From positions 1-32,041 of the forward strand of contig CAMAUC010000036.1 in assembly GCA_945861265.1 (NCBI GenBank): DNA of 32,041 nt. Direction: 5' to 3'. The first letter of the stretch is position 1. Each line of letters begins with the position of its first letter. Both the position numbers and the translations under genes were made by a program. Below the pieces are notes generated by a model. The model saw only the letters and a list, made by a program, of their open reading frames with translations, had not been told where the DNA came from and did not search any database. The DNA is from Rhizobium sp. Q54. Its GTDB lineage: Bacteria > Pseudomonadota > Alphaproteobacteria > Rhizobiales > Xanthobacteraceae. Below, one piece after another: positions 21,938 to 31,468 of this stretch.

Positions 21938-22014
21938 TGGCGCGCCCGGAGAGATTCGAACTCCCGACCCTCGGATTCGAAGTCCGATGCTCTATCCAGC
22001 TGAGCTACGGGCGC
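21938..22014 (-). tRNA. tRNA-Arg (anticodon TCG)
   Basis: A 77-nt cloverleaf including an encoded CCA. The acceptor stem GCGCCCG/CGGGCGC is perfect. The D arm GCTC...GAGC, anticodon stem TCGGA/TCCGA, loop CTTCGAA and T arm GGGAG-TTCGAAT-CTCTC (one G-T wobble) all fold. The anticodon TCG occupies plus-strand 21978-21980 (read as CGA) and decodes CGA and other CGN codons. It lies 40 nt downstream of the catabolic operon on the same strand, with no convincing terminator between. I see no duplicated 3' end that would mark an integrated element. Confidence 0.97.
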
Positions 22015-22054: not shown

Positions 22055-22891
22055 CTAGGCTGCGAAGGTGTCGTTATAGCGCTCGATGCAGGTCTTCAGC
22101 ACCTCGTCGCCCGGCCGGGTCCACCAGTCCTGGGCCGAGAATATCTCGATTTCGGTGTGGCCCTTGTAGCCCGCCTTCTCGATCCAGCCGCTGATGCGCG
22201 GCAGGTCGATAACCCCGTCGCCGGGCATGCCGCGGTCGAGCAAGAGGTCCCTGGTCGGCACCAGCCAATCGCAGATGTGATAGCCGAGGATGCGTTTTTC
22301 GGCGCCCGCCCGCGCGATCTGCGTTTCCAGCTCCGGGTCCCACCAGACATGATAGGCGTCGATGGCGACACCGACGTCGCCGCCAAGCTGCCCCGCCATG
22401 TCCAGTGCTTGCTTCAACGTGTTCACGCAGGCGCGGTCGCCGGCATACATCGGGTGCAACGGCTCGATCGCCAGCGGCATTTTGCTGGCGCGCGCATGCG
22501 GCAAAAGCGCCGCCATGCCGTCCAGCACCATATGCCGCGCGGCGCCGATATCGCGCGAGCCTTGCGGCAGACCGCCGACCACCAGGACCAGACATTCGGC
22601 GCCGAGTGCCGCCGCTTCGTCGACCGCACGCTTGTTATCAGCGATCGCCGCCTGACGGCCAGCAGCGTCGGCGGCCGGAAACATGCCCCCCCGACATAAA
22701 CCGGAGACGCGCATGCCGTTGTCCTTGATGACTTTAACCGCGGTATCGAGTCCGACCGCCGCCACCTGATCGCGCCACGGATCGATACAAGTGATCCCGT
22801 GCCGCGCACAGGCCTCGACCGCCTCGACGAGATTCCACTGCTGGCGCACGGTGGCCAGGTTGATCGAGAGACCTTCGGTTCGCATCGTCAT
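22055..22891 (-). CDS. Sugar phosphate isomerase/epimerase-like TIM barrel (second copy)
   Basis: 278 aa, AP-endonuclease-2/xylose-isomerase-like TIM barrel. The expected metal and active-site ligands are visible: E143 in AIEPLHP, D178 and H181 in VAIDAYHVWWDP, H205 in YHICDW, and E249 in TEIEIFS. The ATG at 22891 overlaps the stop of the enolase-superfamily gene (ATGA), so translation is coupled. It is the last gene of the catabolic operon. Related enzymes isomerise or epimerise keto sugars, or carry out beta-elimination on 3-keto sugars. The reaction here is not known. It shares the fold but little obvious sequence with the TIM barrel at 24312-25145. Confidence 0.9.
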   Translation of the reverse strand: MTMRTEGLSINLATVRQQWNLVEAVEACARHGITCIDPWRDQVAAVGLDTAVKVIKDNGMRVSGLCRGGMFPAADAAGRQAAIADNKRAVDEAAALGAECLVLVVGGLPQGSRDIGAARHMVLDGMAALLPHARASKMPLAIEPLHPMYAGDRACVNTLKQALDMAGQLGGDVGVAIDAYHVWWDPELETQIARAGAEKRILGYHICDWLVPTRDLLLDRGMPGDGVIDLPRISGWIEKAGYKGHTEIEIFSAQDWWTRPGDEVLKTCIERYNDTFAA

Positions 22892-24318
22892 TCTGCTTTC
22901 GGGCTAGAACTCATCAATGTCCAGTCGGGCACAACGGCACTACCCAAACCAGTCGCTTGCGCGATCGAGCGCAGCGACAGCGCGCCGTTCTCTATATCGA
23001 GACGGGCGCGGCCATTCTCCGCGCGGCGGTAGAGATCGCCATGCGCCGCGAGATAGGCGTCCTGCTCCGCTTGTGGCGCGCCGGCCATGCCGTCGACATA
23101 GTGATGGCCATTGCGCTCGACATGCGTTGCGCCGACAAGAGAGGCCAGCAACAGATCCTGCTGCACGGCGATACCGCCTTGCGTTGTGAGATCTTCCGCC
23201 GACATGACGAAGCCGCCGCCGTACTGCTCGTTATAATGCGCGACGCGGGCGCTGTTGAGCAGCGCCCGGTAAAAACCCTTGCAGGACTTCGACGAAATGC
23301 CGTGGTAGCCGAGCGCGCGGGCGCGCGGGAACACGTCGTAATCGGAATCCGATTCGTCGATCTCGACGGCGATATCCCGCGCCAGAGCATGCACCGGCTT
23401 GCTCAAAGCCTGCGCGCGCGTGATCGGCTGCTCGATCAGCAAGAGTGAAGCCTTCAGCCGCGCCAGTTTTTTGTCCTCGCCAATGCGCCGCCATAACTCC
23501 AGTACTGCATCGACGTTCTCATATTGCTCGTTGCCGTCGAGCGTCACCTTGTAAGGCGCGCTGGCGCGGTCGAGCACGGCCGCGATCTGCGCCAAGCGCT
23601 CGATGTCGGCGTCGGCATTGCCGCCGACCTTGAGCTTGAAATAGACATGGCCATAGGCGGCGATGACTTCTTCAAGGCTTTCCGGCAATCCGTCGTCAAG
23701 ACGCTTGCCTTGCGTATCCGCGCGCGTGATCGCGTCGACCAGGCCGACGGTATGGCGCGCGAAGATCGTCCCGGCTGGTTTCACGCCGCTCAAGAATTTA
23801 GTGAGATCGAAGCCGGCTAGATCGGGCGTCAGCGTGGCATCGAGACCGAGCCGATTGTAACGCACCAGTGCGGCGGCGGGCACGCCTTCGAGCCGACCGA
23901 GCGCGTCAATGATGGCGCGCTCGATCAAGGCCATGCCGAAAGATGCCACCAGTCCGTTCAATCCTGCTGCCGCGCATTCCTTGCGATGGCCCGCATTGGC
24001 GGCGGCAGTGATACCGAAGGCGGTCTGTTCGCCAACGCCGGTCATGTGCCGCAGCGCAATCGCCACCGCCCGCCGCAATTGATTGAAATTGTCGTCGTTG
24101 GACAGCTCCGGCGCCTTGTCGAACCATTTCGGCACCAGAAGTTCGGCCGACACGCCCTCGCCGTCGCGGCCATCGGCCATGCGGATGCGCGCGCGGACGA
24201 AAAGTTGCGGCGCCTCGCGCAATGTGACGACGCCGAAGCGGAACGGCAGCCGCAGTTTCACTGGCCGCTCAAAGGCAACGGCTTCGATCAGACGCAGGCG
24301 CGGCGCGGCGTCTAGCAT
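22888..24318 (-). CDS. Enolase-superfamily enzyme, MLE/mandelate racemase-like
   Basis: 476 aa from ATG 24318. The reading frame stays open upstream inside the neighbouring gene, but that extension is frame shadow, and MLDAAPRLRLIEAVAF is where the fold begins. Enolase-superfamily residues are visible: KxK in FKLKVGG (K228, K230), metal ligands D261 in TLDGNEQY and E296 in LLIEQPI, the third ligand in EIDESD (319-323), and opposite lysines in SSKSCKG (K344, K347). The two-sided Lys layout is that of the MLE/epimerase subgroup. At 476 aa it is longer than the usual 350-400, with an enlarged N-terminal part. It overlaps the upstream gene by 7 nt and the downstream gene by 4 nt. Likely a sugar-acid dehydratase, racemase or cycloisomerase step in this operon (inference). 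Confidence 0.88.
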   Translation of the reverse strand: MLDAAPRLRLIEAVAFERPVKLRLPFRFGVVTLREAPQLFVRARIRMADGRDGEGVSAELLVPKWFDKAPELSNDDNFNQLRRAVAIALRHMTGVGEQTAFGITAAANAGHRKECAAAGLNGLVASFGMALIERAIIDALGRLEGVPAAALVRYNRLGLDATLTPDLAGFDLTKFLSGVKPAGTIFARHTVGLVDAITRADTQGKRLDDGLPESLEEVIAAYGHVYFKLKVGGNADADIERLAQIAAVLDRASAPYKVTLDGNEQYENVDAVLELWRRIGEDKKLARLKASLLLIEQPITRAQALSKPVHALARDIAVEIDESDSDYDVFPRARALGYHGISSKSCKGFYRALLNSARVAHYNEQYGGGFVMSAEDLTTQGGIAVQQDLLLASLVGATHVERNGHHYVDGMAGAPQAEQDAYLAAHGDLYRRAENGRARLDIENGALSLRSIAQATGLGSAVVPDWTLMSSSPKAE

Positions 24319-25145
24319 CGCGGCAAGGCCTCCATCAGGCCGCGCACGTAACCGATGGCGCGCGCAGCGCAGGTCGGCCCATCGGGCACGTAAACAAAGG
24401 GCTCTATGCCGTAATCGCCGGCGTAGCTCTGCTCGCGCAGCGCGGCGAAAATCGGCGCAAAATGCAAGTCGCCTTCGCCCGGCCCGCGCCGGTTCGGATC
24501 GTTGAGGTGGACGTGCGCGATCATGCCGGTCGGCAGCCAGCGTTTGATGAGGTCTGGGATAGACTCGGTCTCGGTCGGCGCGGCCGAACTGCAATCCAGC
24601 ATGGTGCGCAGCGCCGGATTGTTGATCTCCCTGACGATCTGCGCCGCTTCTTCGATAGTGTTGATGTGGTCGGTCTGCCGCCGCGACAAAGGCTCGACGC
24701 AATAGACGACGCCGGCTTTGGCTGCGGCCTCGCCCGCCGCGGCAAAGCATTCAATGGCGTGCTTGCGGCCTTCGGCCTCGAAGCCCGGTTCGAGCTTACG
24801 CTGATCCGGCGAGCCATGCACCAGCACCTTGCCGCCAAGATCGGCCGCAAGCTGGCACAAATCGCGCATGACGCCGACGGTGCGATTACGTTGCGCCGGA
24901 TCGCGGGATGTGATCGACAGGCCCGCCGGCGCCCGCATCAGGTAATGCAATCCGGTAATGACGATACCGGCGCTTTCGGCGGCGCGACGCAACGCCGTAC
25001 GCCGGGCCGTCGGCAAAAGGTGCGGCTCATCACCGAGCGTGAACGGCGAGACTTCGAGGCCGTCATAGCCAAGTTGTGCCGCTATTTCGCACTGCTTCTC
25101 GAACCGCAGTTCAGCGATGACCTCATTGCACAGGCCGATTTTCAT
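24312..25145 (-). CDS. Sugar phosphate isomerase/epimerase-like TIM barrel (first copy)
   Basis: 277 aa from ATG 25145 (MKIGLCNEVIAELRFEKQC). Xylose-isomerase-like TIM barrel with candidate metal ligands E151 in YCVEPLSRR, D184 in TMLDCSSA, H211/H213 in AHVHLNDPN and E248 in YGIEPF. The GPGEGDLHF stretch after HVHLND is typical of this family. The start is 5 nt after the tctA stop (TAG-CTGGC-ATG), and the end overlaps the enolase-superfamily start by 7 nt, so the gene is tightly embedded in the operon. Family members include inosose dehydratase-like, hydroxypyruvate-isomerase-like and 3-keto-sugar-processing enzymes. Which of these applies cannot be read from sequence. Confidence 0.9.
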   Translation of the reverse strand: MKIGLCNEVIAELRFEKQCEIAAQLGYDGLEVSPFTLGDEPHLLPTARRTALRRAAESAGIVITGLHYLMRAPAGLSITSRDPAQRNRTVGVMRDLCQLAADLGGKVLVHGSPDQRKLEPGFEAEGRKHAIECFAAAGEAAAKAGVVYCVEPLSRRQTDHINTIEEAAQIVREINNPALRTMLDCSSAAPTETESIPDLIKRWLPTGMIAHVHLNDPNRRGPGEGDLHFAPIFAALREQSYAGDYGIEPFVYVPDGPTCAARAIGYVRGLMEALPRC

Positions 25146-25150
25146 GCCAG

Positions 25151-26689
25151 CTATACGCCTTTGCCGGCGTCGCTGCGCCTGAACAGGCCGCCCAGCGAGG
25201 ACCACGCCCGCGATGTCAGCCGATTGAAGGCCGGCACATTCATCAGGATGGTGACAGCGACCAGTGTGAACATGACGAAGGCGATGGGCCTGGAAAAGAA
25301 CGGCAGCAGGTCGCCATCGGACAATACAAGTCCGCGGCGCAGGCTCTTCTCCATCAAATCGCCGAGCACGATGCCGAGCACCAAAGGCGCCATCGGAAAA
25401 TTGAGCTGCCGCAGCATGAAGCCGATGACGCCGAAGGCCAGCATCACATAGACGTCGAACAGGCGCGAGGCGATGGCATAAGAGCCGACCGCGCACAGCA
25501 CGAAGATGATCGGCATGATCAGGACGGCGGGAAACTGCAGCACCCGCACTAACAACTTCGTCAGCGTCAGGCCGTAGATCAGAATGCCGATGCTGGCGAT
25601 GAACATCATGGCGACGACTTCGTAAACAAACTGCGGATTTTCCACCATGATCAGCGGGCCGGGATTGACGCCGTGGATCAGCATCGCCGCGAGCAGCACC
25701 GCCGCCGGCGCCGAGCCGGGCACCGCGAGCGTTAATACCGGAATCACCGCGCCCGGCACGCAGGCATTGTCGCCGGTCTCGGCCGCCATCAGGCCTTCGA
25801 TCGAGCCCTTGCCGAACAGCTCCTTTTCCTTGCTGGCGCGACGCGCGGCTGCGTAAGAACTCCACGCCGCGACGTCCTCGCCGACACCGGGAACGATACC
25901 GATGCCGGTGCCGATCAAGCCGGAGCGGACGATCGTGCGCCAGTATTTGGTCACGTCGATGAGCTTGGGAATAACCGTGTCATAAGCGCTGACCATGACC
26001 GGGCGCGGCCGGTCCTTCATTACCGTGATGACTTCGGCCAGGCCGAAAGCGCCGACCAGCGCCGGCACCAGCGAGATGCCGCCGGACAGGTCGTGCACCT
26101 CGAAGGTGAAACGGTTGAAAGCGTAGAGCGCCTCCTGACCGATGCCGGCGATGAACAGGCCGAGAAAGCCGGCCATCCATCCCTTGATCGGGTCGTTGCC
26201 GGTCAAATTGCCGGAGATAACGACGCCGAAGATCGCCAGCCAGAAAAATTCATAAGCGCCGAACTTCAACGCCATCTCGCCAAGCACCGGCGTGAAGAAG
26301 GCGAGCGCGATCATGCCGATCCAGGTGCCGAGCACCGAGCCCGACGTGGCGATGCCCATGGCGCGGCCGGCGAGCCCCTGACGCGCCAGCGCATGGCCGT
26401 CGAGGCACGAGGCCGCGGACGCCGGCGTTCCCGGGATGTTGAGCAAAATGGCGCTGCGGCTGCCGCCATAGATTGCGCCGACATAGGTGCAGATCAGGAT
26501 CAGCAGCGCGTCGGCTGACGGCAGCTTGATGGTCAATGTCGTCATCAGCGCCACACCCATCGTCGCCGTCAATCCCGGCAGCGCTCCGATGATGAAGCCG
26601 ACAAAGCAGGCGACCAGCGCATAGACGATCGACGCCGGATTCATGAATCCGAGGATCGCCGTGCCGAATCCGATCAAACCGTCGAGCAT
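25151..26689 (-). CDS. tctA: Tripartite tricarboxylate transporter large permease (TctA family)
   Basis: 512 aa, very hydrophobic, about 12 membrane segments. TctA hallmarks: FVGFIIGALPGLTATMGVALM near 30-50, GAIYGGSRSAILLNIPGTPASAASCLDGH near 71-99, FFTPVLGEMALKFGAYEFFWL, and a second half beginning GTGIGIVPGVGEDVAAW. It forms the transport channel of a secondary, binding-protein-dependent carboxylate importer with TctB and TctC. The start ATG is 9 nt after the tctB stop, and TGAGG overlapping that stop serves as ribosome site. Family substrates include citrate and other di/tricarboxylates, terephthalate and sugar acids. Confidence 0.95.
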   Translation of the reverse strand: MLDGLIGFGTAILGFMNPASIVYALVACFVGFIIGALPGLTATMGVALMTTLTIKLPSADALLILICTYVGAIYGGSRSAILLNIPGTPASAASCLDGHALARQGLAGRAMGIATSGSVLGTWIGMIALAFFTPVLGEMALKFGAYEFFWLAIFGVVISGNLTGNDPIKGWMAGFLGLFIAGIGQEALYAFNRFTFEVHDLSGGISLVPALVGAFGLAEVITVMKDRPRPVMVSAYDTVIPKLIDVTKYWRTIVRSGLIGTGIGIVPGVGEDVAAWSSYAAARRASKEKELFGKGSIEGLMAAETGDNACVPGAVIPVLTLAVPGSAPAAVLLAAMLIHGVNPGPLIMVENPQFVYEVVAMMFIASIGILIYGLTLTKLLVRVLQFPAVLIMPIIFVLCAVGSYAIASRLFDVYVMLAFGVIGFMLRQLNFPMAPLVLGIVLGDLMEKSLRRGLVLSDGDLLPFFSRPIAFVMFTLVAVTILMNVPAFNRLTSRAWSSLGGLFRRSDAGKGV

Positions 26690-26698
26690 GGCAAAGCC

Positions 26699-27214
26699 TC
26701 AGGGCAGCCGGACCAGGAACAGGTCCTGGAACGCATAATGAATGACGAGGCCGGAGATGAGACCGGTCGTGACGGCGACCAGAACGCCGCGCGGCAAGGT
26801 GCCGTCGCGGCGGCGTTCGGCGAACTGGAAGACGAAGATAAAAACCGCGACGAAGATCGCCGAGGCGAGCCAGAACGGCAGGCCATGGCCGATCAGGCCG
26901 ATGGCGTAGCTCAGGCACAAGACCAGCACGGCGATCAGCCGCCAGTGCTCGCCGAGTTTCACGGACGGCCAATGCGCGCCGGCCAAAGCGCCAGCGCGCA
27001 ACGAGCGCACGATCAGAACAAGCGAAGCCATGGCGATGGCGGCGCCGAGTAGACCCGGCACCAGGCCCGGCACGGTGAAGATCGGAATCTTCAGATGCGC
27101 GAGGCGATCCATCGTCCAGGCGCCGACCATGATGGCGATCGCCAGCGCCAGCCAGAAGCCGCCGGCGACGAGATCGACAAAGGGCGACGGCTTTTCATCT
27201 TCCATCGTGGACAT
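26699..27214 (-). CDS. tctB: Tripartite tricarboxylate transporter small membrane subunit (TctB family)
   Basis: 171 aa with four hydrophobic segments: LVAGGFWLALAIAIMVGAW, VPGLLGAAIAMASLVLIV, LIAVLVLCLSYAIGLI, and FWLASAIFVAVFIFVFQF with a final GVLVAVTTGLISGLVIHYAF. Size and layout match TctB, the poorly conserved small subunit. The start is ATG 27214; another ATG three codons downstream is possible. Upstream lies the terminator that follows tctC, so expression depends on read-through or on an unseen promoter. Called mainly from context and topology. Confidence 0.88.
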   Translation of the reverse strand: MSTMEDEKPSPFVDLVAGGFWLALAIAIMVGAWTMDRLAHLKIPIFTVPGLVPGLLGAAIAMASLVLIVRSLRAGALAGAHWPSVKLGEHWRLIAVLVLCLSYAIGLIGHGLPFWLASAIFVAVFIFVFQFAERRRDGTLPRGVLVAVTTGLISGLVIHYAFQDLFLVRLP

Positions 27215-27234
27215 TCCGCTGAAGGGCGTTGATC

Positions 27235-27271
27235 AAAAAGACGAAGGCCGCCCCCGTTTCAGGGGACGGCC
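27235..27271 (-). terminator. Rho-independent terminator between tctC and tctB
   Basis: On the minus strand a 10-bp stem (GGCCGTCCCC / GGGGGCGGCC, one G-U pair; plus-strand arms 27246-27255 and 27262-27271) encloses a 6-nt loop. It is followed by TTCGTCTTTTT (27235 marks the last T). It starts 9 nt after the tctC stop. Its place inside an operon suggests partial termination, giving more binding-protein mRNA than permease mRNA. Confidence 0.8.
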
Positions 27272-27279
27272 TCCGTTCG

Positions 27280-28281
27280 TTACTTCGGAATGCCGACCGT
27301 GTCGGGCGAGACCTTCGACTTGCCGGCCTCGTGCAGCTGCCAGGCCGTGGTCTTGATCGCCGGCATCGCGGCTGCGAGCGCGGCAGCGCCGGAAACCGGC
27401 GCGAACAGTGCGCCGTTGGCGGTGGCGTATTTCTTCATCGCCTCCGACTTGGCGATAACGTTTTCCCACAGCATGTCGATGGTCTTAGTGACGTCGGCCG
27501 GCACGCCCTTCGGCACGAAAATGCCGAAATAGTTGGCGTCCGGCTTGTAGCCGGCGACCGACGAGGTGATCGGCGCGATAGTGCCGAAGCCTTCGAGTTC
27601 GAGCGGCTTGTCGGACAGCACGGCGAGCGGGTTGAGCCGCTTGGCGCGGATCATGTTGGCCTGCTCGACCGCGAGCTGCGTCGTCACTTCGGCTTCGCCG
27701 GACACCACGGCGATCACCGCCGGATTGCCGCCGTCATACGTGACGTGCTTGTAGGTCAGGCCGAGCGCGCGGGTGAAGGCTTCGATGGCGGCGTGGCCGG
27801 ACGAGTTGATGCCGGCAGTCGCGACCGACACCGTGTTCGGCTTGGCCTTCATCGCGGTGATCAGGTCCTGCGGAGTCTTGTAGGCCGACGAAGGGCCGAC
27901 GCCGAGCACCGACACGTTGACGACGCTCAGATAGAGGTTCCAGTCGGCGATCTTGGTGTCGAGCAGACCGCTGACCGCGTAAGTGCCAAGATCCTTGGCG
28001 GCGCCGGCGGTCCAGGTATAGCCGTCCTTAGGCGCTTCGAGCGCATTCTTGGTACCGATCGAGCCGGATGCGCCGGGCTGATTGACGATGACGATTTTCT
28101 GGCCGAGCGACTTTTCCATTTCGGCAGCGGCAAGGCGCGATACCTGATCGGTCGAACCGCCAGCCGCCCACGGCACGATCAAGGTGATAGGACGTTCCGG
28201 CTTCCACGGATAGTTCTGGGCAGAAGCGGCGCCGGAAAGTCCGATGGCCGCCGCGGCACTGAGCATCAAGATGCGTAACAT
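27280..28281 (-). CDS. tctC: Tripartite tricarboxylate transporter binding protein (TctC/Bug family)
   Basis: 333 aa periplasmic receptor. A Sec signal peptide is visible (MLRILMLSAAAAIGLSGAASA, cut near residue 21). The mature start YPWKPERPITLIVPWAAGGSTDQ, then KIVIVNQPGASGSIG and the APKDGYTW region, is the classic Bug-family pattern with the conserved Asp loop that grips the carboxylate. The ribosome site GGGAGAA lies about 7 nt before the ATG. It is 71 nt downstream of the DUF993 gene on the same strand and is followed by a strong terminator. Bug proteins bind many organic acids, so the ligand should be inferred from the catabolic genes around it. Confidence 0.95.
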   Translation of the reverse strand: MLRILMLSAAAAIGLSGAASAQNYPWKPERPITLIVPWAAGGSTDQVSRLAAAEMEKSLGQKIVIVNQPGASGSIGTKNALEAPKDGYTWTAGAAKDLGTYAVSGLLDTKIADWNLYLSVVNVSVLGVGPSSAYKTPQDLITAMKAKPNTVSVATAGINSSGHAAIEAFTRALGLTYKHVTYDGGNPAVIAVVSGEAEVTTQLAVEQANMIRAKRLNPLAVLSDKPLELEGFGTIAPITSSVAGYKPDANYFGIFVPKGVPADVTKTIDMLWENVIAKSEAMKKYATANGALFAPVSGAAALAAAMPAIKTTAWQLHEAGKSKVSPDTVGIPK

Positions 28282-28352
28282 TGTAGTTCTCCCTTGGTTG
28301 ATATGTCGTCGTTTCCTGGTCGCCGGTCTAATGCCGGCTTTTTATTCGCAGC

Positions 28353-29519
28353 CTAAGCCATCCCGTGCACCGCCAACAGCCTGTTCATGCGTGACGCGGC
28401 CAGATCCGGGTCGTGCAAAACCCGTGCTTTGTCGGCGAGGCGGAACAGCTCGGCGAGGTGCAAGATCGAGCGTGCACTCTCTTGGCCACCGACCATGATG
28501 AAGTGGTCCTGCAATCCGTTCAGCCAGGCCAGAAACACGACGCCGGTCTTGTAGAAGCGCGTCGGTGCCTTGAAGATGTGGCGCGACAGCGGCACCGTCG
28601 GCTCCATGATGCCGTGAAAGCCTTGCAGGTCGCCTTTCGATAGCTTCGCCAGCCCGGCCGAGGCCGCCGGTGCAATGGCGTCGAAAATGCCAAGCAGCGC
28701 ATCGGAATAGCCTTCCTCGTCGCCGGCGATCAGTTCGGCGTAATTGAAGTCGTCGCCGGTATACATGCGTACGCCCTGCGGCAGGCGGCGGCGCATCGAG
28801 ATTTCCTTGTCCTTCGACAGCAGCGAAATCTTGACGCCGTCGATTTTGGCGGCGTTGTCCTGCATCACGGCGAGGCACGTCTCCATCGCGGCCTTGTGAT
28901 CGGCATTGCCCCAGTAACCCGCCAGCGCCGGATCGAACATTTCGCCAAGCCAGTGAATGATCACCGGCTCCTTCACCTGACGGAGAATGCGGCCATAGAC
29001 GCGCTCGTAATCGGCAGGCGATTTGGCGGCGTGCGCCAGCGCACGCGACGCCATGACGATGAGCTTGCCGCCCATGCCCTCGACGGCTTCGATCTGCTCA
29101 TCATAGGCGCGGATGATATCGTCGATGGTCACGTCATCGGTGACCGCGAGATGATCGGTGCCGACGCCGCAGCAAATCTTGGCGTCCGGCCGGCCTTTGG
29201 CCGCTTCCAGCGCGTGCTTGATCAGCTGCTTTGCCGCCGGCCAGTCGAGCCCGCCGCCGCGCTGCGCGGTGTCCATCGCCTCGGCGACGCCGAAGCCTAA
29301 GTCCCACAGGTAATGCCGGAAGGCGATCGTCTTATCCCAGTCGATATTGGTGTCCAGCCACGGATCGTTATCGGCCAGCGGGTCGGCGACCACATGCGCG
29401 GCCGCATAGGCAACGCGGTTGAAGCGCGCCGTCTCTGCCTTGGACGGAAACTGGATCGGCTCGCCCGTCGTGTAGGAAGCGAATTTGCCGCCAGCGTGAG
29501 GAAGCGAAAGCGTCGCCAT
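28353..29519 (-). CDS. DUF993 family protein, dihydrodipicolinate-synthase-like TIM barrel
   Basis: 388 aa from ATG 29519 (MATLSLPHAGG). I chose this over an in-frame ATG 11 codons upstream because GGGAG lies 6 nt before it, overlapping the stop of the oxidoreductase gene. The sequence matches my memory of DUF993, annotated as a distant DHDPS/NAL-type aldolase. The probable Schiff-base lysine is K230 in DGVKISLLS, at the place of the GxK lysine in DHDPS. The strand PVIIHWLGEMFDPALAGYW (185-203) parallels the PxxLYN..P..T loop of that family. Likely a class-I aldolase cleaving or forming a keto-acid bond, but no reaction is known to me. The gap to the preceding gene is 10 nt. Confidence 0.85.
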   Translation of the reverse strand: MATLSLPHAGGKFASYTTGEPIQFPSKAETARFNRVAYAAAHVVADPLADNDPWLDTNIDWDKTIAFRHYLWDLGFGVAEAMDTAQRGGGLDWPAAKQLIKHALEAAKGRPDAKICCGVGTDHLAVTDDVTIDDIIRAYDEQIEAVEGMGGKLIVMASRALAHAAKSPADYERVYGRILRQVKEPVIIHWLGEMFDPALAGYWGNADHKAAMETCLAVMQDNAAKIDGVKISLLSKDKEISMRRRLPQGVRMYTGDDFNYAELIAGDEEGYSDALLGIFDAIAPAASAGLAKLSKGDLQGFHGIMEPTVPLSRHIFKAPTRFYKTGVVFLAWLNGLQDHFIMVGGQESARSILHLAELFRLADKARVLHDPDLAASRMNRLLAVHGMA

Positions 29520-29529
29520 CTTTTGCTCC

Positions 29530-30684
29530 CTAGATTTTGATTTCCGGCACATCCAGCCAGCGCCGCTCGGCCCAGCTTTTCAGGCCCAGCTCGGCCAACT
29601 GCACGCCCTTGACGCCTTCGATCAAGCCATGATGCCACGGCGTATCCGCCACGACATGGCGAATGAAATCTTCCCACTGAATCTTGAAGCCGTTCTCATA
29701 AGCGATATTGTCCGGGACTTCCTCCCATTGCGACGCAAAGTCCATCGTCTGCGGTACGTCGGGATTCCATACCGGACGCGGCGTGTTAACGCGCGCCTGC
29801 GTCACGCATTTGGTCAGCCCGGCAACGGCCGAACCATGCGTGCCGTCGACCTGAAACGTCACCAGGTCGTCGCGCTGCACGCGCACCGCCCAGGACGAAT
29901 TCATATGCGCGATCACACCACCCTCAAGCTGGAAGGTCGCGTAAGCCGCGTCGTCGGCGTCGGCCTCGTAGGTCTTTCCGTTCTCATCGACGCGCTTGGG
30001 AATATGCGTGGCGCCAAGGCAGCTTACCGCCTCGACCTTGCCGAACAGATTGTCGAGCACGTAGCGCCAGTGGCACAGCATATCGAGAATGATGCCGCCG
30101 CCTTCGGCTTTCTTGTAGTTCCAGCTCGGGCGCTGCGCCGGCTGGCCCCAGTCGCCTTCGAACACCCAATAGCCGAACTCGCCGCGCACCGAGAGCATAC
30201 GGCCGAAGAAGCCGGCTTCGCGCAGCATCTTGATCTTGCGCAGGCCCGGCAAAAACAGCTTGTCCTGCACCACACCGTTCTTCAGGCCCTTGGCTTTGGC
30301 GAATTTGGCGACCGCGATCGCCTTGTCGAGCGTATCGGCAACCGGCTTCTCACAATAGATATGTTTGCCGGCCTGCATCGCCTGCATGATCAAGTCGGCG
30401 CGCATTTGCGTCGTCGCCGCGTCGAAGAACACTTCGTCCTTCGGGTCGTTCAGCGCCGCGGTGAGATCGGTCGTATGGCGCTCGATGCCATACTGCTTGG
30501 CCAGCGCCGCGATCTTTTCGGCATTGCGGCCGACCAGGATCGGATCGGGCATCACCCGGTCGCCATTCGGCAGCAGCACGCCGCCCTGCTGGCGGATCGC
30601 CACGATCGAACGCACCAGATGCTGGTTGAGCCCCATGCGTCCGGTGATGCCGTACATCACAATGCCTAATCTGCGGGTTGCCAC
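29530..30684 (-). CDS. Gfo/Idh/MocA family NAD(P)-dependent oxidoreductase
   Basis: 384 aa, first gene of the catabolic operon. A Rossmann motif is at the N-terminus (IVMYGITGRMG, 8-18). The EKP catalytic Lys motif is at 112-114 (YCEKPVAD). The D-xxx-H pair is D201/H205 in GGGIILDMLCHWRYVLD, as in sugar dehydrogenases of this family. The start is GTG at 30684, supported by a strong GGAGGA Shine-Dalgarno at plus-strand 30692-30697. Family members oxidise sugars, inositols or sugar acids, often at C3 or C1. Its position directly behind the regulated promoter suggests it starts the pathway (inference). Confidence 0.92.
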   Translation of the reverse strand: MATRRLGIVMYGITGRMGLNQHLVRSIVAIRQQGGVLLPNGDRVMPDPILVGRNAEKIAALAKQYGIERHTTDLTAALNDPKDEVFFDAATTQMRADLIMQAMQAGKHIYCEKPVADTLDKAIAVAKFAKAKGLKNGVVQDKLFLPGLRKIKMLREAGFFGRMLSVRGEFGYWVFEGDWGQPAQRPSWNYKKAEGGGIILDMLCHWRYVLDNLFGKVEAVSCLGATHIPKRVDENGKTYEADADDAAYATFQLEGGVIAHMNSSWAVRVQRDDLVTFQVDGTHGSAVAGLTKCVTQARVNTPRPVWNPDVPQTMDFASQWEEVPDNIAYENGFKIQWEDFIRHVVADTPWHHGLIEGVKGVQLAELGLKSWAERRWLDVPEIKI

Positions 30685-30731: not shown

Positions 30732-30749
30732 AGTAACCATACGGTTACT
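30732..30749. promoter_or_regulatory. Operator-like palindrome, probable TetR binding site
   Basis: AGTAACC (30732-30738) and GGTTACT (30743-30749) are perfect inverted arms around a 4-nt centre, a length typical of TetR-family operators. It overlaps the -10 of the predicted promoter, so binding would block transcription of the operon. Confidence 0.7.
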
Positions 30750-30775
30750 ATGCAGACGCACCCCCGGTCCGTCAA
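30747..30775 (-). promoter_or_regulatory. Predicted sigma-70 promoter of the catabolic operon
   Basis: On the minus strand TTGACG (30775-30770), a 17-nt spacer, then CATAGT (30752-30747). Transcription should start near 30740, about 55 nt before the GTG of the oxidoreductase gene. Confidence 0.65.
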
Positions 30776-30796: not shown

Positions 30797-31468
30797 TCAG
30801 AGTTTTGTGGGCTTCAAATAGGCGAGGATGACCTCGACGATATGCTCACCGCGCCGCACCAGCCGCTCCGGCGCGCTGAGGTTCTCGCCGAAGATGGTCG
30901 AGAGCGTGTGCCGGTTCGACATATAGAAGAAGCCGAGCGCGGCGATGCTGATGTACAGCTCGATCGGGTCTATGCCGGCGCGGAAAACCTTCTCTGCCGC
31001 GCCCCGCTTCAGCAGAACTTCGATCATCCCAACCAGCGGCGCGTGCAAGGTGCGGATCTGCTTGGAGGTCTTGAGATAAGCCGCCCGGTTCATGTTCTCG
31101 GTCGCCAGCAGACTCAAGAATTCCGGGTGGTCGATGAAATACTGCCAGGTGAACAGCACCAGTTTGCGCATGCCGGCCACGGGGTCGAGTTCGGTCAGAT
31201 TGAGGCCGATCTCGGCGGCGCGGATCGCCGCGTAAGTGTGTTCGAGCACGGCGAGATAAAGACCCTGCTTGTCGCCGAAGTAGTGATAGAGCATGCGCTT
31301 GTTGACGCCGGCCCGCGCCGCGATGGCATCGACGCGGGCGCCGGTCAGCCCCTTGGCCGTAATTTCGGCCGTGGCGGCGCGCAGGATCGCCGCGCGCGTG
31401 CGCTCGGGGTCGCGCGTCAGACTGGCGGCGCGCGGCTTGCTCCTCGTTTTCGGCAGACTGCCTTCCAT
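30797..31468 (-). CDS. TetR family transcriptional regulator
   Basis: 223 aa. The N-terminal helix-turn-helix domain lies at about 20-70 (RAAILRAATAEITAKGLTGARVDAIA, then AGVNKRMLYHYFGDKQGLYLAVL), an excellent TetR signature. The C-terminal domain of about 150 residues is all-helical and would bind the ligand. A basic stretch precedes the HTH (PKTRSKPRAAS). The ATG at 31468 has GAGGGGAG just upstream. The gene ends 112 nt before the oxidoreductase gene, and that gap contains the operon promoter and operator. It is therefore the natural candidate for local repressor, with a pathway intermediate as inducer (inference). It starts 45 nt after the cobA-type gene on the same strand and could share its transcript. 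Confidence 0.93.
   Translation of the reverse strand: MEGSLPKTRSKPRAASLTRDPERTRAAILRAATAEITAKGLTGARVDAIAARAGVNKRMLYHYFGDKQGLYLAVLEHTYAAIRAAEIGLNLTELDPVAGMRKLVLFTWQYFIDHPEFLSLLATENMNRAAYLKTSKQIRTLHAPLVGMIEVLLKRGAAEKVFRAGIDPIELYISIAALGFFYMSNRHTLSTIFGENLSAPERLVRRGEHIVEVILAYLKPTKL

Follow-up and report, generated by a model that had tools for sequence, protein, structure and literature searches.

An operon around DUF993 in Rhizobium sp. Q54 is a probable variant of sugar-acid catabolic operons

Do the genes that surround a protein of family DUF993 (PF06187) in Rhizobium sp. Q54 form a single pathway, and what would that pathway do? The window, by which we mean the whole analysed stretch of 32,041 nucleotides (nt) from contig CAMAUC010000036.1 (assembly GCA_945861265.1), carries eight co-directional minus-strand genes from position 30684 down to 22055. 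They encode a Gfo/Idh/MocA-type oxidoreductase (GFO), the DUF993 protein, the transporter proteins TctC, TctB and TctA, a first xylose-isomerase-like barrel (TIM1), an enolase-superfamily enzyme (ENO) and a second such barrel (TIM2). A preliminary description had reported this contiguous cluster and its families, and we confirmed all eight genes at their place and strand. The operon is probably a variant of sugar-acid catabolic operons, arranged around a family for which we found no assigned reaction. On balance we favour, with moderate confidence, a TetR-repressed, non-phosphorylative catabolic operon that would import a carboxylated carbohydrate and break it down by oxidation, isomerisation and Schiff-base cleavage.

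The cluster is widely conserved in bacteria and recurs beyond the source genome. Among 297 genomes from the source order, 89 contain a PF06187 match. A GFO orthologue (cut-off E ≤ 1e-100) is present in 61 genomes, each of which also carries DUF993, while ENO (E ≤ 1e-60) occurs in 43, of which 42 carry DUF993 and 41 carry GFO. Counted by genus (n = 123), DUF993 is found in 34, GFO in 23 and ENO in 16; Fisher values for the co-occurrence overstate independence, because the sampled genomes are related. DUF993 was also found in 36 of 398 genomes of a draw from the phylum, which partly overlaps the order sample, and on 147 of 72,556 plasmid records, Actinomycetota among them. No relative was detected on the viral contigs searched.

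To describe gene order, we used 60 of the 98 DUF993 places in the 297 genomes, picked to spread over genera (order loci), and the best 80 of at least 589 confirmed loci from named records, a set biased to close relatives (named loci); one locus, L035 = L111, belongs to both sets and is counted twice. Partners were scored by tblastn, and a gene was called directly upstream or downstream if the gap was below 400 nt. At the order loci, we found GFO 36 times, TIM2 43 times, TetR 39 times, ENO 22 times, and TIM1 and TctA 14 times each. The corresponding counts at the named loci are 75, 77, 63 and 38, with TIM1 at 12 and TctA at 16. GFO lies directly upstream of DUF993 at 35 of 36 order loci and all 75 named loci, TIM2 directly downstream at 30 of 36 and 61 of 73, and the TetR gene of this cluster accompanies GFO at 33 of 36 order and 63 of 75 named loci. 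The full set, defined as GFO, DUF993, TIM2, ENO, TIM1, TctA and TctC in one stretch regardless of their order, with TctB optional, is present at four of the 60 order loci (L041, L044, L052 and L077) and nine of the 80 named loci (L099, L109, L119, L124, L137, L148, L154, L157 and L170). At these nine loci TctB is above threshold as well, and the full-set loci include records titled Limnohabitans and Hydrogenophaga, both Betaproteobacteria.

Taken together, co-occurrence and gene order strongly support a grouping of the eight genes beyond chance, as had been supposed from the sequence. Chance neighbours without a common pathway would fit the variation of transporters and TIM1 between loci, an explanation that is already contradicted by the presence of DUF993 in all 61 GFO genomes, by the position of GFO immediately ahead of DUF993 at 110 of 111 loci (one of them entering both sets) and by a palindrome common to distant modules (see below). 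We consider it extremely improbable.

Two further observations were made on the DUF993 loci. A second locus type (L057, L063, L072, L083, L090 and similar ones) combines DUF993 with a CoA-transferase, an enoyl-CoA hydratase and an aldehyde dehydrogenase, together with a LacI regulator and a sugar-type ATP-binding cassette (ABC) importer, in sets that vary. DUF993 genes 64% and 70% identical to that of the window occur at L149 and L103, in records titled Frankia sp. RB7 and as an Acidobacteriales metagenome-assembled genome, respectively, which may reflect contamination or transfer.

Within the window, five of the seven operon junctions are short: three genes are separated from the next by 10, 9 and 5 nt, and two junctions overlap, by 7 and 4 nt. 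This agrees with the preliminary statement that gaps or overlaps are mostly below 12 nt; the two junctions flanking tctC are longer and measure 71 and 65 nt. A strong terminator-like hairpin occupies the gap between tctC and tctB, and we infer partial termination at this place; lying just 3′ of tctC, it might perhaps lift the level of the binding protein above that of the permease. The tripartite tricarboxylate transporter is complete, with all three components above their Pfam cut-offs. The product of the TetR-family gene is the probable repressor of the operon. A perfect palindrome, the candidate operator, is located between this gene and GFO and overlaps a promoter-like pair; consensus scanning returned two such pairs against 1.6 expected in the scanned region. 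All features are listed in Table 1.

Table 1. Operon genes and neighbouring features of the window
Feature	Position	Strand	Basis or remark
TetR-family regulator	30797-31468	-	Pfam TetR_N + TetR_C_29
Promoter-like pair TTGACG-17-CATAGT	30747-30775	-	Consensus scan alone
Perfect palindrome GTAACC-ATAC-GGTTAC, candidate TetR operator	30733-30748		Pattern search
GFO, Gfo/Idh/MocA NAD(P)-dependent oxidoreductase	29530-30684	-	Pfam
DUF993 protein, DHDPS/NAL-type barrel	28353-29519	-	PF06187, E 1.7e-186
TctC solute-binding protein	27280-28281	-	Pfam
Terminator-like hairpin, tctC-tctB gap	27241-27276	-	-35 kcal/mol, z -4.3, U run
TctB small permease	26699-27214	-	Pfam
TctA large permease	25151-26689	-	Pfam
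TIM1, xylose-isomerase-like barrel	24312-25145	-	Pfam AP_endonuc_2
ENO, enolase-superfamily enzyme	22888-24318	-	Pfam MR_MLE_C, weak: 32.1 bits vs cut-off 29.4
TIM2, xylose-isomerase-like barrel	22055-22891	-	Pfam AP_endonuc_2
tRNA-Arg (TCG)	21938-22014	-	Directly past TIM2, the last operon gene

We surveyed 160 loci (order and named loci, four annotated plasmid regions and the detached ENO loci described below, with the duplicate removed) for GTAACC-N4-GGTTAC with at most one mismatch, and found 78 sites in 59 loci, 18 of them perfect. Spacers of 2, 3, 5 and 6 nt gave only 0, 1, 2 and 2 sites. As many as 75 of the 78 sites are located from −40 to 300 nt before a called gene start, compared with 26.7% of random positions, and a single one lies within a gene. 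Seven control palindromes produced 0 to 31 matches per spacing, and the three largest groups among them were intragenic (29/31, 29/29 and 19/20). A tally by downstream gene, based on 83 sites in 165 loci (including the duplicate and four loci fetched by palindrome search) and crediting a site between divergent genes to both, assigned 27 sites to Gfo-type genes, 14 to TetR, 11 to TctC, eight to sugar-binding proteins, six to the DHDPS-family protein c45, five each to TIM1 and NMT1-type proteins, and four to DUF993. The majority of such genes lack a site: in the clusters GFO_2 and GFO_20, 27 of 142 have one, and 47 of 142 if two mismatches are allowed.

Across the 297 genomes, the perfect palindrome occurs at 29 sites in 23 genomes. 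Ten of these genomes have a GFO orthologue and together hold 12 sites, of which ten are at genes of the two modules introduced below: six before GFO (the window, G145, G100, G206, G226 and G202), one before TIM1 (G100) and three before c51 of the detached module (G040, G080 and G115). The remaining two are the site in G047 and another one in G202 (L216, G202:C1:807590), which lies between genes for a GMC oxidoreductase and an aldehyde dehydrogenase and has a copy with one mismatch some 100 nt away. In G100, the sole two perfect sites lie ∼105 nt before GFO and ∼15 nt before TIM1, 2.7 Mb apart. The window genome contains one perfect palindrome, the operon's own. Allowing one mismatch yields four sites there against four for a reversed control pattern; therefore, no further targets can be claimed in this genome. 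Also in the window genome, a palindrome with one mismatch at L217 (C2:44197) is located between a second, divergent tctC-like and tctA-like gene.

The operon also appears to be divisible. In twelve order genomes, ENO is remote from DUF993, on another contig, or present without any DUF993 (G245). From ten of these genomes we compiled 11 detached ENO loci (L186-L196), leaving out the fragmentary G026 and G032. TIM1 adjoins ENO at eight of them, TctA at seven, c51 at eight and c45 at seven, compared with six each for c51 and c45 at the 60 ENO loci beside DUF993. The protein c51 belongs to the NAD-dependent epimerase family, with the TerB oxidoreductase as its nearest solved relative, and c45 is a member of the DHDPS family, to which its profile matches significantly (95.5%). 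Since c51 and c45 are common at detached ENO loci and rare beside DUF993, the window operon resembles two joined modules: it looks like a core of TetR/GFO-DUF993-TIM2 combined with a TctCBA-TIM1-ENO module that also occurs separately, in different company. In the joined operon, GFO and DUF993 appear to take over the places of c51 and c45. The importer type differs among loci and may be TctCBA, an NMT1-type ABC system or a sugar-type ABC system. NMT1-type importers were found solely together with ENO (31 of 60 ENO-containing loci vs none of 51 without), many of these ENO-containing loci being from Bradyrhizobium.

What chemistry could the conserved core perform? The AlphaFold2 model of DUF993 has a predicted local distance difference test (pLDDT) value of 91.5. 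A Foldseek search returned the orthologue 4dnh first, the structure of SMc04132 from Sinorhizobium meliloti solved without a stated function, followed by DHDPS (E 3.7e-10; template modelling score 0.59 when normalised to the query, 0.74 to the target). The protein is thus predicted to be a (β/α)8 barrel of the DHDPS/NAL type, in agreement with the fold proposed earlier. K230, counted with the start Met and numbered K229 in our alignments, which start after it, is invariant in 51 rows and ends the strand 225-230, which we take as the sixth of the barrel. DUF993 is therefore likely to be a Schiff-base enzyme acting through Lys230, and an aldolase function is plausible. It shares fold and strand-6 lysine with the class-I aldolases and dehydratases of this family, from which it differs by its additional length of about 90 residues and by the apparent motif deviations weighed below. 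We found no paper naming DUF993 or PF06187, and no function for DUF993, in the open-licence PubMed Central literature; there, the S. meliloti locus tags have table or network mentions only, and no related paper on this gene set was found.

By Pfam, GFO has both the Rossmann and the C-terminal domain of the Gfo/Idh/MocA family, and its residues K113, D201 and H205, which correspond to the Lys, Asp and His with a known role in these enzymes, are at least 97% conserved in 115 rows; 3oqb is a solved relative. In both barrel proteins, the Glu-Asp-His-Glu metal site of xylose-isomerase-like barrels is invariant: E154, D187, H214 and E251 of TIM1 in 17 rows (numbered from 25154, three codons ahead of the ATG), and E143, D178, H205 and E247 of TIM2 in 12 rows. 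The nearest solved relatives of TIM1 are ketose 3-epimerases, while TIM2 is related to SMc04130 (3ju2, 3qc0), solved without an assigned function. Comparison of the eight operon proteins with NCBIfam gave no match at or above a curated cut-off, in line with the preliminary remark that no described pathway with this exact set is known.

Such a combination of enzymes brings to mind an inositol-like (cyclitol) pathway, in which GFO, TIM2 and TIM1 would act as in iol and DUF993 would replace the later steps. The best NCBIfam match of GFO is indeed inositol 2-dehydrogenase, and an IolB/KduI-family protein is encoded in the ENO operon of another genome. However, both score under their cut-offs (82.2 bits against 355 for GFO, 161 against 205 for the IolB/KduI-family protein), the operon proteins show no IolD, IolC or IolB family match in Pfam or NCBIfam, and TctCBA, judged by its family, suggests a carboxylate. 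We regard a cyclitol pathway as quite improbable. The likeness to myo-inositol and levoglucosan catabolism consists of Gfo/Idh/MocA enzymes combined with xylose-isomerase-like barrels; in contrast, the operon reaches no equivalog cut-off and has no other iol marker enzyme. Membership in either system was rejected on these scores.

For ENO, the preliminary description had proposed the dehydration of a sugar acid. The model (pLDDT 94.3) adopts the enolase-superfamily fold (Foldseek E about 1e-15), and the three metal-binding acids of this superfamily's barrel, D259, E294 and D319, are invariant in 31 rows (numbering from 24312; adding 2 gives the count from Met). The same holds for K226, K228 and K342, and all six residues end successive strands; in the model, K226/K228 end strand 224-228 and K342 ends strand 338-342. 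A KxK motif on strand 2 and a lysine on strand 6, together with D, E and D, are the mark of the MLE subgroup. Acid-sugar dehydratases of the MR subgroup are defined by a His/Asp dyad on strands 7 and 6, which we did not see in ENO, where K342 closes strand 6 and E373-D374 closes strand 7. A profile search returned mostly dipeptide epimerases and muconate cycloisomerases as best solved relatives, all weak (best E 1.1e-5). According to PMC7246345, cycloisomerases, dipeptide epimerases and N-acyl amino acid racemases are among the enzymes of the MLE subgroup, whereas acid-sugar dehydratases are found mainly in MR, GlucD, ManD and GalD. Because of the MLE-type lysine pair, a sugar-acid dehydratase is not the first choice for ENO; this candidate was set back, with syn-elimination still possible. 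ENO is distant from all solved MLE members and about 100 residues longer.

A different role for ENO would follow if it acted with the core on a keto- or unsaturated hexuronate, that is, in uronate or glucuronoside catabolism. One ENO operon contains GH39 and KduI/IolB family genes, TerB oxidoreductase is nearest to c51, and a DUF2264 gene is found near the core at eight Rhizobium-type loci. These loci represent few genera only, and that DUF2264 is GH154 is our assumption. Two GH154 members acted as uronate dehydratases (PMC12269599). As the operon itself lacks GH39, KduI/IolB and DUF2264 genes, we judge this explanation rather improbable.

Returning to the sugar-acid operon that we favour, the steps could be combined as follows. 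TctCBA would import a carboxylated carbohydrate, and ENO might use its lysine pair to move the proton beside the carboxylate, by epimerisation, lactone opening or closing, or syn-elimination. GFO would oxidise a secondary hydroxyl to a ketone, and TIM1 and TIM2 would shift or epimerise the ketose. DUF993 would then form a Schiff base at Lys230 and split (or dehydrate) the keto acid; the likeliest products are a C3 keto acid and an aldehyde. TetR would repress the operon through the candidate operator.

Two known regions contain parts of this set. In the carbohydrate (xyl) operon of plasmid pAO1 from Paenarthrobacter nicotinovorans, orthologues of GFO (58% identity) and DUF993 (52%) are adjacent, with a sugar ABC importer and AldH as neighbours. 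The pAO1 operon, which has a role in xylose use, differs by having GMC, AldH and glycerate kinase genes, with no TctABC, ENO, TIM1 or TIM2 annotated in the stretch examined. The S. meliloti locus L093 (strain Ak57), which we infer to be the counterpart of the tags SMc04130-SMc04140, shows TetR-GFO-DUF993-ENO-TIM2 in the same order; it differs in carrying a sugar-type ABC importer and extra Gfo enzymes in place of TctCBA, and no TIM1 was found there. Its record (CP090106.1) is named S. meliloti pSymB (3.72 Mb) while the cluster matches SMc (chromosomal) proteins, so the record may be mislabelled.

Several findings weigh against our reading of the operon. The GFO orthologue is absent from 28 of the 89 DUF993 genomes. 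The 24 of 60 order loci without GFO carry different partners, namely a CoA-transferase (15), an aldehyde dehydrogenase (10), a GMC oxidoreductase (8), another Gfo enzyme (7), a TIM2 relative (7), TetR (6) or GH42 (4); DUF993 therefore works in more than one context. The Tct importer is not linked to ENO (16 of 60 loci with ENO vs 13 of 51 without), and the fold matches of ENO mix MLE, MR and glucarate-dehydratase structures, leaving the subgroup undecided by this search. Regarding the palindrome, 51 of the 61 GFO genomes lack a perfect copy, and genomes that have no GFO orthologue account for 17 of the 29 perfect sites; genome-wide, a reversed control pattern is commoner (about 59 by hand count). 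Because there is no genome-wide enrichment, the argument from the palindrome is one of position.

Some properties of DUF993 weigh on the same side. GXXG, which in DHDPS/NAL aldolases comes after strand 2, was not seen in DUF993, where strand 76-79 leads into MDTAQ (residues 81-85). When its profile was compared with those of three DHDPS-family proteins encoded in the same genome, the match was not significant (probability 0.3%); the alignment nevertheless places K230 opposite the Schiff-base lysine and the invariant H188 opposite the aldolase tyrosine. The comparison with c45 was likewise not significant (0.6%), and there, too, lysine is opposite lysine. Ordinary DHDPS/NAL aldolases are marked by lysine, tyrosine and GXXG, and in a dehydratase of this family replacement of the catalytic tyrosine (Gln143) went along with loss of aldol cleavage (both from the review PMC9795676). 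Of the earlier proposal of a class-I aldolase, the fold and the lysine thus stand while the two other marks are seemingly missing, which puts a dehydratase or a different Schiff-base lyase on an equal footing with an aldolase.

DUF993 might accordingly resemble the 2-keto-3-deoxy-pentonate dehydratase and serve an oxidative, Weimberg-like route without C-C cleavage. His188 at the aligned place of the tyrosine, in an alignment that is not significant, would suit this, as would the pAO1 pair, whose adjoining AldH carries the record tag “D-xylose catabolic process”. A semialdehyde-forming route would need an aldehyde dehydrogenase, which the operon lacks (the rest of the genome was not searched for one), and glycerate kinase genes beside several DUF993 genes suggest a C3 product. 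We consider the dehydratase route unlikely, though worth keeping in mind. Glycerate kinase is encoded near DUF993 in four of nine annotated plasmid regions (pAO1, S. meliloti pSymA, Erwinia and Paracoccus yeei); against a cleavage to C3 speaks its presence at just two of 161 other loci, a number that includes four of the plasmid regions. The window genome has one glycerate-kinase-type gene, outside the operon. A C3 product such as hydroxypyruvate would suit these neighbours.

As a tentative and in itself doubtful extension of the sugar-acid reading, DUF993 could be a new type of Schiff-base lyase. Its substrate would be a non-deoxy keto sugar acid that GFO produces and TIM2 brings into position, and the cleavage would yield an aldehyde and hydroxypyruvate. 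The latter would enter metabolism via glycerate and glycerate kinase, TIM1-ENO would be an exchangeable head for carboxylated substrates, and GFO/DUF993 and c51/c45 would be interchangeable pairs for oxidation and cleavage. Overall, the preliminary interpretation has kept its grouping, its fold and K230; its dehydratase is weakened, its aldolase open and its chemistry plausible in outline, and it had passed over the two-module structure, the TetR gene with the palindrome, and the DUF993 genomes without GFO.

If the cleavage to hydroxypyruvate is true, the operon would represent a non-phosphorylative route that differs from the Entner-Doudoroff, Dahms and Weimberg pathways. The constant partners, the common palindrome and the split into two modules make the function of DUF993 testable: TetR offers an induction assay, TctC can be screened for ligands, and the conserved core leaves few enzymes to reconstitute. 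For each of the core enzymes GFO, DUF993 and TIM2, there are solved relatives whose structures were deposited without a stated function.

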